From the NCBI GenBank assembly GCA_030427735.1, contig JAUIBP010000017.1, forward strand, positions 1 through 44,921: a DNA stretch of 44,921 nucleotides, in the 5' to 3' direction. Positions 30,830-44,921 of this stretch are shown in pieces (within the stretch, counting starts at the first letter, position 1; the number at the start of each line of letters is the position of its first letter). Position numbers and translations under genes: made by a program. Origin of the DNA: Bacteroidia bacterium. GTDB lineage: Bacteria; Bacteroidota; Bacteroidia; Flavobacteriales; Flavobacteriaceae. The notes below the pieces were generated by a model. It searched no databases. It saw only the letters and a program-made list of their open reading frames with translations, and was not told the DNA's origin.

Positions 30830-31185
30830 TGAGTACGTTTACTATATTTTTATTCCTAATCGTTGTCGTAGCCTTTCTATTAATTGTAGTTATTATGGTA
30901 CAAAACCCTAAAGGTGGCGGATTATCGTCTTCTTTTGGCGGCGGCGGTTCTCAGCAAATTGGTGGTGTTAAAAAAACGACCGATTTCTTAGACAAAAGTA
31001 CCTGGACATTAGCGACCTTAATGCTTGTTTTAATTTTATTATCTAACGTAGCTATAAACAGAGGTTCTGGCAGTGTTGAATCTAAAGCATTAGATACCGA
31101 GTCTACAGCGCAACCGTTACCAAACACGCCTGCAGCTCCGGCAACTACAACAGAAACACCTGCTACAGATGACAGTGCAGAATAA
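30829..31185 (+). CDS. secG: SecG, preprotein translocase subunit
   Basis: 118 residues. Two transmembrane helices (about residues 2-22 and 56-76) flank the conserved cytoplasmic PKGGGLSSSFGGGG loop. SecG helps SecYE/SecA export at the inner membrane. A ~40-residue Thr/Ala/Pro/Glu-rich tail follows the second helix, longer than in Proteobacteria but common in Bacteroidetes. Its ATG overlaps the previous stop (TAATG) and a strong terminator follows. Confidence 0.92.
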   Translation: MSTFTIFLFLIVVVAFLLIVVIMVQNPKGGGLSSSFGGGGSQQIGGVKKTTDFLDKSTWTLATLMLVLILLSNVAINRGSGSVESKALDTESTAQPLPNTPAAPATTTETPATDDSAE

Positions 31186-31207
31186 GCAAAACTCATTAAA
31201 CTTATAT

Positions 31208-31242
31208 AAAAAATGCCAACGTGTTTACGTTGGCATTTTTTG
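31208..31242 (+). terminator. Terminator after secG
   Basis: A perfect stem, ATGCCAACGT pairing with ACGTTGGCAT around a 4-nt loop GTTT, with A-run before and T-run after. Confidence 0.9.
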
Positions 31243-31245
31243 TTT

Positions 31246-31286
31246 CTGAAAGTTTGTCAGTCCTATTAACTTGGCATAATTTTCGA
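31246..31286 (+). promoter_or_regulatory. groES promoter with palindromic operator, sigma-54-like alternative
   Basis: CTGAAAGTTTGTCAG (31246-31260) is a palindrome overlapping a TTTG (31253-31256), 20 bp before TAATTTTC (31277-31284), a near-match -7 box. The stretch TTGGCATAATTTTCGA (31271-31286) also resembles a sigma-54 -24/-12 element, with a weak -12 half. The start codon is at 31333. No CIRCE (HrcA) inverted repeat is present. Confidence 0.55.
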
Positions 31287-31332
31287 AATGTACAGTTCAG
31301 TAAATCATAAACTATTAAAAAAATATAATAAC

Positions 31333-31611
31333 ATGAGTAAAGTAAACATCACACCACTTGCAGACCGCGTTCTGGTAGAACCACTTCCTGCAGAAACTCA
31401 AACAGCATCTGGATTATTCATTCCAGATTCAGCACAAGAAAAACAACACAAAGGTACCGTTGTTGCTGTTGGTACTGGTAAAAAAGATGAACCACTTACT
31501 GTAAAAATTGGAGACACCGTACTTTACGGTAAATACTCTGGTTCCGAATTAAAACTTGAAGGTAAAGATTACCTAATGATGCGCGAAGACGACATCATGG
31601 CAATTATTTAA
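31333..31611 (+). CDS. groES: GroES, 10-kDa co-chaperonin
   Basis: 92 residues from ATG 31333 (MSKVNITPLADRVLVEP); fifteen codons upstream in frame belong to the leader. Caps the GroEL cylinder during folding. Conserved features are PLADRVLVEP, the mobile loop ETQTASGLFIPDSA (about residues 20-33) and LMMREDDIMAII at the C-terminus. Normally groEL follows directly; here about 465 bp with an inverted-repeat-flanked gene lie between. Confidence 0.95.
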   Translation: MSKVNITPLADRVLVEPLPAETQTASGLFIPDSAQEKQHKGTVVAVGTGKKDEPLTVKIGDTVLYGKYSGSELKLEGKDYLMMREDDIMAII

Positions 31612-32066
31612 TGCTTTTGGCTTTAGGCAGTAAGCTTTAAGCAATAGGCTTATGAGGGATTTTAAAAAATACGACATTTGGAAACTAAGTCATTCGCTTA
31701 CTCTAGAAATTTACAAGTTAACCAGTAATTTTCCACAAGAAGAGTTATTTGGATTGACTTCGCAATTAAGACGAGCTTCCGCCTCCATCCCAACAAATAT
31801 TAGTGAAGGCTGCGGAAGAGATAGTGACAAAGATTTCAACCGATTCCTCGCTATTGCTTTAGGCTCAGCAAACTAAGTTGAATATTTATTAATACTTGCG
31901 AAAGATTTAAATTACATCTTAGAGCAAGATTTTATTCAACTTAACCAAAACATTAACCTTATTAAGAAAAAAATATTCACTTTAAAACAAAAGTTAACCA
32001 AGTAGACAAAGGCCAAAAGCATAAAGCCTATCGCTTAACGCTTACAGCCTATTGCCTACTGCAATT
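31611..32066. mobile_element. Inverted-repeat-bounded insert between groES and groEL
   Basis: Core inverted repeats of 22 nt with only two mismatches lie at 31630-31651 and 32024-32045 (consensus GTAAGC-TTAAGC-ATAGGCTT). Outside them are further short units, TTAGGCA, AATAGGCT and ATGCTTTTGGC, also partly inverted. The left arm ends one base before the enclosed start codon. The layout, a four-helix-bundle gene inside a stem-forming repeat, resembles intervening sequences of 23S rRNA, here placed between two protein genes. Confidence 0.6.
31652..32005 (+). pseudogene. Four-helix-bundle protein (23S rRNA intervening-sequence protein type), one nonsense codon
   Basis: A 117-codon frame with a single stop, TAA at 31874-31876, where the family has a charged residue (GSAN-stop-VEYLLILAKDLNYI; homologues read like GSA-x-ELEY). 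The frame is otherwise perfect to TAG 32003-32005. Signature parts: FKKYDIWKLSHSLTLEIYK, LTSQLRRASASIPTNISEG and RFLAIALGSA. This PF05635-type fold also includes Avd of diversity-generating retroelements. Biological function is not established. It could be inactive, read through, or make a 74-residue N-terminal product. Confidence 0.8.
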
Positions 32067-32070
32067 TTAA

Positions 32071-33708
<1,638 letters not shown>

Positions 33709-42962: not shown

Positions 42963-44921
42963 TTAATCCCCTTTTGTTTTAACATCTATTTGTTGTTCTA
43001 ATTCAGACACCCTTTTTTCCATTTGCAGAATATATAAAGTCATTTCTTCAATTTTTTCAAGAAGAACAACATTCATTTTAGCGAGATCAATTCCATTCGC
43101 TTTAACTTCATTCGCACTCGGTACATTTGGCAAATGCCCATATTTACGAATAAACAATTCAACATCCTTTAATGTTGGTAAATCGTATCCCTTTTCAAAC
43201 ACATAATCTGGCCAAGAAGTTTGCAGAGCGACGTTAATTTCCTCAGCAACTACACCTCCAGCGACAGCTAATCTGTAATTAGACGTATTTAAAGTACCTA
43301 TACCTAGATTACCATTTACAAACGTATGGTTAGAATACCAATCTACATCTAACCTGTTAGCATTCTGATCTGTATAATTAACCTCCTCATTTAGAGTCGT
43401 TGCTTCTAAAGCAACACTCTGTAAGGACATATTCCCAGAACCATCCAAAGCACGAACCGTGAAACTATAAGTTGAGGATGGCGTTAAACCTGATACTGTA
43501 TAACTCGTTAATCCGCCTGTTAATCCTAAACTTACGCCATTCTGAAATACTTCATAATCGCTAACACCTACATTATCCGTTGAGGCCGTCCAACTTAAAT
43601 CCAAGCCTGTTGTCCCGAGGTTCGAAGCCAACAAGCCCGTTGGAACACTTGGAGACTCTGTATCGGCTGGGCTTAGGGTCGTTGCCTCTAAAGCGACACT
43701 CTGTAAGGACATATTCCCAGAACCATCCAAAGCACGAACCGTGAAACTATAAGTTGAGGATGGCGTTAAACCTGATACTGTATAACTCGTTAATCCGCCT
43801 GTTAATCCTAAACTCACGCCATTCTGAAATACTTCATAATCGCTAACACCTACATTATCCGTTGAAGCTGTCCAACTTAAATCCAAGCCCGTTGTCCCGA
43901 GGTTCGAAGCCAACAAGCCCGTCGGAATGCTTGGAGCTTCTGTATCGGCTGGGCTTAGGGTCGTTGCCTCGAAAGCATCACTTTGCAAGGACATATTCCC
44001 TGAACCATCCAAAGCACGAACTGTAAAACTATAGGTTGTGGATGGCGTTAAACCTGAAACTGTATAACTTGTTAATCCGCCTGTTAATCCTAAACTCACA
44101 CCGCTCTGAAACACTTCATAATCGCTGACCCCTACATTATCCGTTGAGGCCGTCCAACTTAAATCCAAGCCAGTTGTCCCGAGGTTCGAAGCCAACAAGC
44201 CCGTTGGAACACTTGGAGCTTCTGTATCGGCAGGGCTTAGGGTCGTTACCTCTAAAGCGACACTCTGTAAGGACATATTTTCTGAACCATCCAAAGCGCG
44301 AACTGTAAAACTATAGGTTGTGGATGGCGTTAAACCTGAAACTGTATAATTCGTTAATCCGCCCGTTACCCCTAAACTAACTCCGTTCTGAAAAACTTCA
44401 TAATCGCTGACTCCTACATTATCTGCTGAGGCCGCCCAACTTAAATCCAAACCTGTTGTCCCGAGGTTCGAAACCAATAAACCCGTTGGAATGCTTGGAG
44501 ACTCTGTATCGGCTGGGCTTAGGGTCGTTGCCTCTAAAGCAACACTCTGCAAGGACATATTTCCCGAACCATCCAAAGCGCGAACTGTGAAACTATAAGT
44601 TGTGGATGGTGTTAAACCTGAAACTGTATAACTCGTTAATCCGCCTGTTAATCCTAAACTCACACCATTCTGAAATACTTCATAATCGCTAACACCTACA
44701 TTATCCGTTGAAGCTGCCCAACTTAAATCCAAGCCCGTTGTCCCGAGGTTCGAAGCCAACAAGCCCGTCGGAATGCTTGGAGCCTCTGTATCAGCTGGGC
44801 TTAGGGTCGTTGCCTCTAAAGCGACACTCTGCAAGGACATATTTCCCGAACCATCCAAAGCGCGAACCGTAAAACTATAGGTCGTGGATGGCGTTAAACC
44901 TGAAACTGTATAACTCGTTAA
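42963..44921 (-). CDS. Fibronectin-type-III repeat surface protein, 5' end outside window
   Basis: At least 653 residues; the frame stays open to the window edge, so start and signal peptide are missing. Five full copies plus part of a sixth of a 94-residue FN3 domain (APSIPTGL-like start, DLSWTASTDNVGVSDYEVF, YTVSGLTPSTTYSFTVRA, DGSGNMSLQS). After the last repeat comes LGIGT..., then a C-terminal module WPDYVFEKGYDLPTLKDVE to HLPNVPSANEV and a leucine/glutamate coiled coil (MNVVLLEKIEEM, VSELEQQI). This module occurs in Bacteroidetes cell-surface or tail-fibre-like proteins. No type IX secretion C-terminal signal is seen. Likely an adhesin or surface scaffold. Confidence 0.8.
   Translation of the reverse strand, partial: LTSYTVSGLTPSTTYSFTVRALDGSGNMSLQSVALEATTLSPADTEAPSIPTGLLASNLGTTGLDLSWAASTDNVGVSDYEVFQNGVSLGLTGGLTSYTVSGLTPSTTYSFTVRALDGSGNMSLQSVALEATTLSPADTESPSIPTGLLVSNLGTTGLDLSWAASADNVGVSDYEVFQNGVSLGVTGGLTNYTVSGLTPSTTYSFTVRALDGSENMSLQSVALEVTTLSPADTEAPSVPTGLLASNLGTTGLDLSWTASTDNVGVSDYEVFQSGVSLGLTGGLTSYTVSGLTPSTTYSFTVRALDGSGNMSLQSDAFEATTLSPADTEAPSIPTGLLASNLGTTGLDLSWTASTDNVGVSDYEVFQNGVSLGLTGGLTSYTVSGLTPSSTYSFTVRALDGSGNMSLQSVALEATTLSPADTESPSVPTGLLASNLGTTGLDLSWTASTDNVGVSDYEVFQNGVSLGLTGGLTSYTVSGLTPSSTYSFTVRALDGSGNMSLQSVALEATTLNEEVNYTDQNANRLDVDWYSNHTFVNGNLGIGTLNTSNYRLAVAGGVVAEEINVALQTSWPDYVFEKGYDLPTLKDVELFIRKYGHLPNVPSANEVKANGIDLAKMNVVLLEKIEEMTLYILQMEKRVSELEQQIDVKTKGD
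43394..44921 (-). repeat. Tandem 282-bp repeats encoding FN3 domains
   Basis: Unit starts of 282-bp spacing can be followed through the conserved CTGTATCGGCTGGGCTTAG-like stretch near 43659, 43941, 44223, 44503 and 44785. Copies are nearly identical at DNA level, with mostly silent or single-residue differences, implying recent amplification or gene conversion. Copy number is likely to vary and such arrays are prone to assembly collapse. Confidence 0.85.

Follow-up and report, generated by a model that had tools for sequence, protein, structure and literature searches.

The groES and groEL genes of this flavobacterial genome are separated by an element that belongs to a broad family of copies found between cistrons, and on balance we favor the view that it is an intervening sequence (IVS)-like element, of the kind found in 23S rRNA, that lives between the cistrons of protein-coding operons. 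The IVS-type element itself is known; its hosting between protein cistrons, with mirrored heptads on its flanks, is the new part. The window, by which we mean the whole stretch of DNA that was analyzed, comprises 44,921 nucleotides of Bacteroidia bacterium (GenBank assembly GCA_030427735.1, contig JAUIBP010000017.1), and the features of the region are collected in Table 1.

Table 1. The groES-groEL region and the parts of the element between the two genes (positions in the window)
Feature	Position	Strand	Remarks
groES (Cpn10)	31333..31611	+	PF00166, E 8.9e-32; 5' neighbor of the element
Left arm	31612..31651	+	Tandem imperfect GCNNTAR-type heptads; lag-7 segment score 12
Four-helix-bundle / 23S_rRNA_IVP ORF	31652..32005	+	PF05635 with X at the stop
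In-frame TAA	31874..31876	+	Sole nonsense codon of the ORF
Right arm	32024..32063	+	Mirrored-orientation heptads; lag-7 segment score 21
groEL (Cpn60)	32077..33708	+	PF00118, E 1.6e-78; 3' neighbor of the element

The whole element (31612-32063) lies in a groES-groEL gap of 465 nt, with its ORF in sense orientation relative to both genes. When X is placed at the TAA codon, the ORF matches positions 1-104 of the 106 in PF05635 (E 3.4e-38; 130.5 bits, above the curated cut-off of 33.8), and its first 74 amino acids score 95.8 bits against TIGR02436, above the cut-off of 24. The ORF is therefore a member of these four-helix-bundle families, the annotation of which is silent on arms and operon placement. 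No stop codon interrupts this frame in the 23 named groESL relatives examined (23 of the 24 named loci were used), all of which have ORFs of at least 112 amino acids; given the nonsense codon, the copy in this genome seems to be decaying. At E 0.001 or below, the ORF matched PF05635 alone, and no transposase domain was found in it. An Rfam search of 31000-32600 returned no family near its gathering score, the proteins of two relatives had no match among PADLOC defense families at E 0.01, and a near-identity search of plasmids gave no match. The solved PF05635 relatives 2gsc and 2rld each contain five chains, and a pentamer is stated for a Xanthomonas protein (PMC4990558). Avd of diversity-generating retroelements is a distant homolog (PMC10053308); against NF033474 (Avd), one relative (L156) scored 31.1 bits, far short of the curated threshold of 80, and neither L134 nor the piece of this ORF gave a match up to E 0.001. 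Elsewhere in the window, 43391-44921 is occupied by a tandem repeat with a 282-bp unit (5.4 copies, 91% matches), which reaches the window end.

An earlier, sequence-only reading of this DNA had described 22-nt inverted repeats with two mismatches at 31630-31651 and 32024-32045, and these proved exact. They enclose the ORF up to its start codon, as it had claimed, with the left arm ending at 31651 directly before the ATG at 31652, and its four-helix ORF is indeed intact but for one nonsense codon. Its suggestion that pairing extends outside the 22-nt core also held, in the form of 40-nt inverted arms that are 80% complementary and are built of tandem heptads, which it had missed. The left-arm heptads are, in order, GCTTTTG, GCTTTAG, GCAGTAA, GCTTTAA, and GCAATAG; a mirrored series is present on the right, where further heptad matches start at about 32009. 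The local score between left and right flanks is 43 at this element, compared with a cross-locus mean of 17.5 (sd 3.9; 101 loci). RNA folding of 31590-32090 gave a z-score of -5.17, and 0 of 100 shuffles were as stable; in the predicted minimum-energy fold, the arms are paired as short helices with single mismatches between them at steps of about 7 nt.

The rRNA IVS of Coxiella is 428-444 nt long and has a 28-bp terminal stem, a sense S23p ORF that shows reductive decay, and tandem heptameric repeats directly 5' of this ORF, with the RNase III site for its excision at the first repeat (PMC4990558). As these rRNA elements are described for Coxiella and Leptospira, the groESL element resembles them in its sense IVP-family ORF, its complementary termini predicted to form a stem, its length (about 430-450 nt), its sporadic presence, and the decay of the ORF in some hosts, and it shares tandem heptamers before the ORF with the IVS of Coxiella. 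Unlike them, it sits between protein-coding cistrons rather than in an rRNA helix, and its family has mirrored heptads on both sides and many divergent copies per genome. Among the hallmarks of an IVS, complementary termini (with the stem as a prediction), a sense IVP ORF, and sporadic presence were thus found, and location in an rRNA gene was not, the element being situated between groES and groEL; because it resides in a protein operon, we call it IVS-like rather than an rRNA IVS. In CPR bacteria, some of the reported rRNA insertions carry IVP ORFs, and others, a separate group without an ORF, occur at many sites (PMC11270868).

Copies of PF05635 are widespread among relatives of this bacterium. 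Five are present in its own genome. Genomes with at least one copy make up 5 of 6 in the genus, 113 of 149 in the family, and 75 of 99 in a sample of the phylum; there were none in 14 control genomes. The same plan recurs, to some degree, at most of about 190 other loci, with heptads that differ between sites. In a set of 101 loci (103 retrieved minus L018 and L019, two pieces of one broken copy), an ORF finder placed both neighbors on the same strand as the IVP ORF in 92 cases, one neighbor in 7, and neither in 2, and the median gaps flanking the ORF were 56 and 43 nt. Because this set consists mostly of best-scoring matches, we also compiled a near-complete list of copies for the six family genomes that have the most of them. 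This census used 70 of 78 listed matches, and the remaining 8 were left out as lying at a contig edge, partial, broken, or not retrieved. In it, 65 of the 70 copies had a same-strand gene on either side, and five had one on a single side only. The chance expectation for two same-strand neighbors is about 0.38 (P about 3e-22), a rough baseline that comes from one genome and an ORF finder (242 co-directional pairs among 322 neighboring ORF pairs in 400 kb of this bacterium's DNA).

At L103, a nadD-like gene lies 3' of the IVP gene, and the gmk / four-helix / nadD arrangement of F. columnare, listed among phage elements (PMC5524665), could represent an element of this type. IVP genes have also been described in cas loci, and one of these, between cmr3 and cmr2 in Pleurocapsa, was read as CRISPR-associated (PMC3936711); its intercistronic position fits this IVP family instead. 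Repeats are not discussed in the passages of these two papers that deal with IVP genes, and among open PMC papers we found no prior report linking IVP genes to operon positions and heptads.

The heptad arrangement was surveyed at 153 loci, 3 of 156 having been dropped for short flanks. The best lag-7 flank segment had a mean score of 11.8, compared with 3.8-4.3 at lags 4, 5, 6, 9, 10, and 11, 5.6 at lag 8, and 4.0 in shuffled sequence. At least one arm reached a score of 12 or more in 90 of the 153 loci, and both arms did so in 45; the passing arms (135 of 306) had a median of 5.4 heptad units, a length that the threshold itself pushes toward four or more. One locus that came from two collections (L060 and L176) is counted twice in this survey and in the Mantel, array-density, pairing, permutation, and clade analyses described below. 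It is shared by G042, a genome of the family, and a named Xanthomarina contig, on which basis we take the family to be Flavobacteriaceae. In the census, 47 of 70 loci had at least one arm with a heptad score of 9, and 23 had none. The density of lag-7 arrays was 3.36/kb at distances of up to 150 nt from the ORF and 0.19/kb elsewhere in the same loci, compared with 0.07/kb and 0.02/kb, respectively, for a lag-9 control.

In 400 kb of this bacterium's own genome, there were 17 lag-7 arrays, of which 15 were intergenic; other lags gave 1-11 arrays, with 1-5 intergenic. Of the 15, only 3 have an IVP ORF at a distance of up to 150 nt; they belong to L003 and L004. The sampled 400 kb contains one more whole copy, L001, neither arm of which reaches the array threshold. 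Another 7 are in three long intergenic mosaics of L233 (6419-6793, 12626-13025, and 15982-16034) that have no IVP gene and adjoin a REP-like repeat (GATTCTTCGCTCCG...CTGAATGACA), and five are elsewhere. No degenerate IVP gene was found within the three mosaics. From these counts and the density contrast above, heptad arrays show strong enrichment beside IVP genes but are far from restricted to them. An ATTGAG-like heptad array of the L001-element kind lies at L248:17657-17726, in a separate intergenic gap 1.26 kb from L001, and is possibly a solo arm or relic. The right arm of L004 (C3 of this genome, about 148 kb) holds the heptamer TAACTGA, unexplained intergenic arrays of which have been described in Beggiatoaceae, Cyanobacteria, and Bacteroidetes (PMC4679880). 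Those arrays are likewise intergenic tandem heptamers, often placed just before start codons, but the paper presents them as direct repeats that precede genes of various kinds, and its main text does not contain the words S23, four-helix, or intervening.

Across different sites, protein identity correlated with similarity of heptad profile (Mantel rho 0.204, compared with a maximum of 0.137 in 300 permutations). This test used 117 of the 153 loci, 36 without a heptad arm of score 9 having been dropped, and base composition and host relatedness remain in the correlation. In the census (52 loci, with pairs from the same site retained), the between-genome value was 0.156, barely below the maximum of 500 permutations. 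Most members of this element's clade have GC-containing heptads, whether they lie beside groEL, cysN, leuB, or other genes, and two Poribacteria and two Anaerolineae loci are among them; the exceptions in the clade are three other Poribacteria loci with AGTTATA-like heptads, L089, and several loci that lack a clear array. AGTATTG-like heptads are found in a clade next to thiolase genes, and AGAAAAT-like ones in another. Judged from these sequences, related proteins appear to share one heptad motif, which the left and right arms tend to carry in mirrored form. Orthogonality of heptad codes within a genome was also considered and was unsupported, as heptad similarity within genomes was about the same as between them for pairs of <45% identity.

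At the groES-groEL site itself, 24 named loci are filled, mostly in Flavobacterium and also in Avrilella, Dokdonia, and Winogradskyella; they were found through the ORF and are hence positives only, and they make up all but one of a groEL-site set of 25 loci. F. pectinovorum and F. reichenbachii (L140/L142) are among the species with an intact copy. A tree of 47 proteins (40 of the 53 in this element's clade and 7 others, hand-picked, with L176 absent) is compatible with one origin at groEL in 71% of 200 bootstrap trees and with a single origin at cysN and at leuB. In the genus of this bacterium, the site is filled in 1 of 6 genomes, this one. In a second genus of the family, presumably Flavobacterium, 61 genomes were drawn evenly and 60 sites were resolved (L308 was the exception); 5 of these are filled, with gaps of 412-477 nt, and 55 have no ORF, with gaps of 11-147 nt. 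In two of the latter, L262 and L270 (147 and 141 nt between groES and groEL), a short stem that lacks the ORF is still bracketed by GC-type heptad arms on both sides, and the lag-7 scores of 23 and 22 exceed those at filled sites in the second genus. Where the ORF is missing in the bacterium's own genus, the site holds arm remnants or diverged sequence: the right arm is nearly whole in the sister L109 (score 55; 0 of 500 shuffles as high), and parts of it remain in L106 and L108 (0 and 1 of 500 shuffles as high, respectively). The sisters L107 and L105 have no significant arm remnant, and the left arm is present in none of the five. The remnants in three of five sisters and the ORF-less stems of L262 and L270 suggest loss that leaves arm remnants, and gain was not seen. 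The element at groES-groEL appears to be an ancient insertion, inherited vertically and lost often.

These comparisons bear on what the sequence-only reading had proposed. It had called for the groES-groEL spacing of relatives, and the two genes are closer together where the element is absent. It had also proposed a search for the repeats with and without the ORF; repeats without the ORF were found in L109, L106, and L108 for the right arm and in L262 and L270 for both arms, and no significant remnant was found in L107 or L105. An unremarkable gene conserved in all relatives, the outcome it had set against itself, is not what the sparsely filled sites of the two genera display. Its idea of an IVS-like unit in a protein operon stands as regards the ORF, the termini, the length of about 450 nt, the sense orientation, and the patchy presence, but such a unit is not peculiar to groESL. 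Other gaps at this site hold different sequences. Those without the ORF in L279, L287, L276, L289, and others often contain AGTATTA-like heptads, possibly the remains of another element type, and L120, in another family, has a gap of 265 nt. In a transcriptome study of Flavobacterium psychrophilum, groES and groEL are under one promoter, and a helix bundle or S23 is not mentioned in its main text (PMC9723704).

The intact groESL copies are under strong purifying selection. ORFs from 23 named loci (L147 was left out) form 253 pairs, and the 124 whose dS was 0.1-1.5 had a median dN/dS of 0.057. Such selection is among the evidence for a host-beneficial operon regulator, in which the four-helix protein would bind the heptads of its own mRNA and tune translation or stability, with no excision and no selfishness. 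The correlation of protein clade and heptad type across different sites and the tight co-directional intercistronic position also favor such a regulator, and single origins at groEL and cysN followed by long residence are compatible with the data. We consider this explanation rather unlikely, as the element is very patchy at groESL (5 of 60 sites in the second genus and 1 of 6 in its own), the copy in this genome is broken, the host operons are unrelated core operons, and the mirrored motif of the right arm would be superfluous for a protein that binds single-strand RNA.

The relationship between the two arms was analyzed in several ways. Across 153 loci, the left arm matched the reverse complement of the right arm with a mean score of 28.3 at its own locus and 16.8 with other loci, and the own-locus match was in the top 5% for 82 loci and in the top half for 136. 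When the 70 census elements were folded, there were 21.2 left-right base pairs, compared with 10.8 after the right arms were swapped; 15 or more such pairs were predicted in 43 of 70 elements and in 86 of 280 swapped ones, and 27 of the 70 census loci had fewer than 15. Within a site, own arms had no clear advantage over cross-species arms at groEL (25.9 versus 25.2, n = 25), were hardly better at fadA (25.1 versus 23.2, n = 16), and were not better at cysN (18.0 versus 19.2, n = 7). Permuting whole heptad units changed the best ungapped score from 17.2 to 15.7 in 85 of 193 loci (the other 108 lacked usable arrays in both arms) and from 24 to 22.6 at this element. By these three within-site tests and the unit permutation, compensatory co-evolution of the arms is weak or absent. 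An RNA-stem model with base-by-base compensatory changes is thus unsupported, since cross-species arms pair about equally and unit permutation costs little. The left-right match is mainly a motif property, and selection for exact pairing is not clearly seen; a motif-level stem, or recognition of mirrored motif arrays, fits the arms better.

Mirrored orientation with conservation at the level of the motif rather than the pair is also expected of terminal repeats and so fits the view of the insert as a DNA-level mobile element, the arms of which would be terminal inverted repeats for the IVP protein and a host enzyme, with the RNA stem incidental. One protein clade does occur beside many different downstream genes, and the ORF-less stems of L262 and L270 resemble non-autonomous copies. 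This explanation is nonetheless improbable in light of the census, in which copies within one genome are diverged (median identity 0.275-0.325, highest pair 0.65) and neither near-identical copies nor recent within-genome duplication was seen in any of the six genomes. Moreover, 0 of 70 census copies are antisense to both neighbors, which indicates a constraint at the RNA level, the ORF has no transposase domain, and neither a clean empty site nor a target duplication was found among own-genus sites. Low-complexity chance or a sequencing artifact, which short, degenerate heptads and an ORF with a nonsense codon might suggest, has a probability close to nil and is ruled out by the specificity for lag 7, the cross-locus controls, and the 25 groEL-site loci (24 named assemblies).

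The reading of the insert as an IVS-like element, which we prefer, is based on its IVP ORF, the mirrored pairable heptad arms, the sense placement in operons, the recurrence of the arrangement, the patchiness with remnants, and the purifying selection, with further support from the heptamers, stem, and RNase III cut of the Coxiella IVS (PMC4990558). On this reading, the element is probably excised from the mRNA. It would be promoterless and transcribed as part of the operon mRNA, in which the arms would fold to a stem enclosing the ORF. Cleavage of this stem by RNase III or a similar enzyme would release the insert and separate groES mRNA from groEL mRNA, and the two would continue apart. The host may tolerate this split because the cut falls between cistrons, where continuity is unneeded, much as ribosomes with cut 23S helices are tolerated. 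Such a split might also alter the GroES:GroEL ratio, as the sequence-only reading had suggested. The encoded protein probably binds its own heptads and probably acts on the arms of its own element in protection, processing, or spread.

Several observations run against the IVS-like reading. Strong purifying selection also fits a host function, and no recent movement is seen, since the copies within a genome are diverged. Exact pairing is not clearly selected, and some census loci have few pairs or no arm. Most heptad arrays in the 400-kb sample of this bacterium's own genome are not beside an IVP gene, and 2 of the 101 loci are antisense to both neighbors. A wider proposal, which we hold as speculative and doubtful, is that IVSs are not mainly rRNA elements and instead form a phylum-spanning, mRNA-resident class processed from operon transcripts, in which mirrored arrays of some five heptads, with one heptad for each subunit, would be the recognition sites of the encoded pentamer in a clade-specific heptad code.

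PF05635 genes are present in most sampled genomes of the phylum (75 of 99), and the IVP family is called functionally uncharacterized in PMC4990558 and PMC11270868. Treating IVP genes as operon-resident, IVS-like units with mirrored heptads provides a concrete, testable model for the protein and its binding to heptads. It may also account for a group of unusual intergenic heptamer arrays and of small ORFs that split operons, and it raises the question of how many of the operon transcripts in bacteria are cleaved by elements that reside in them.
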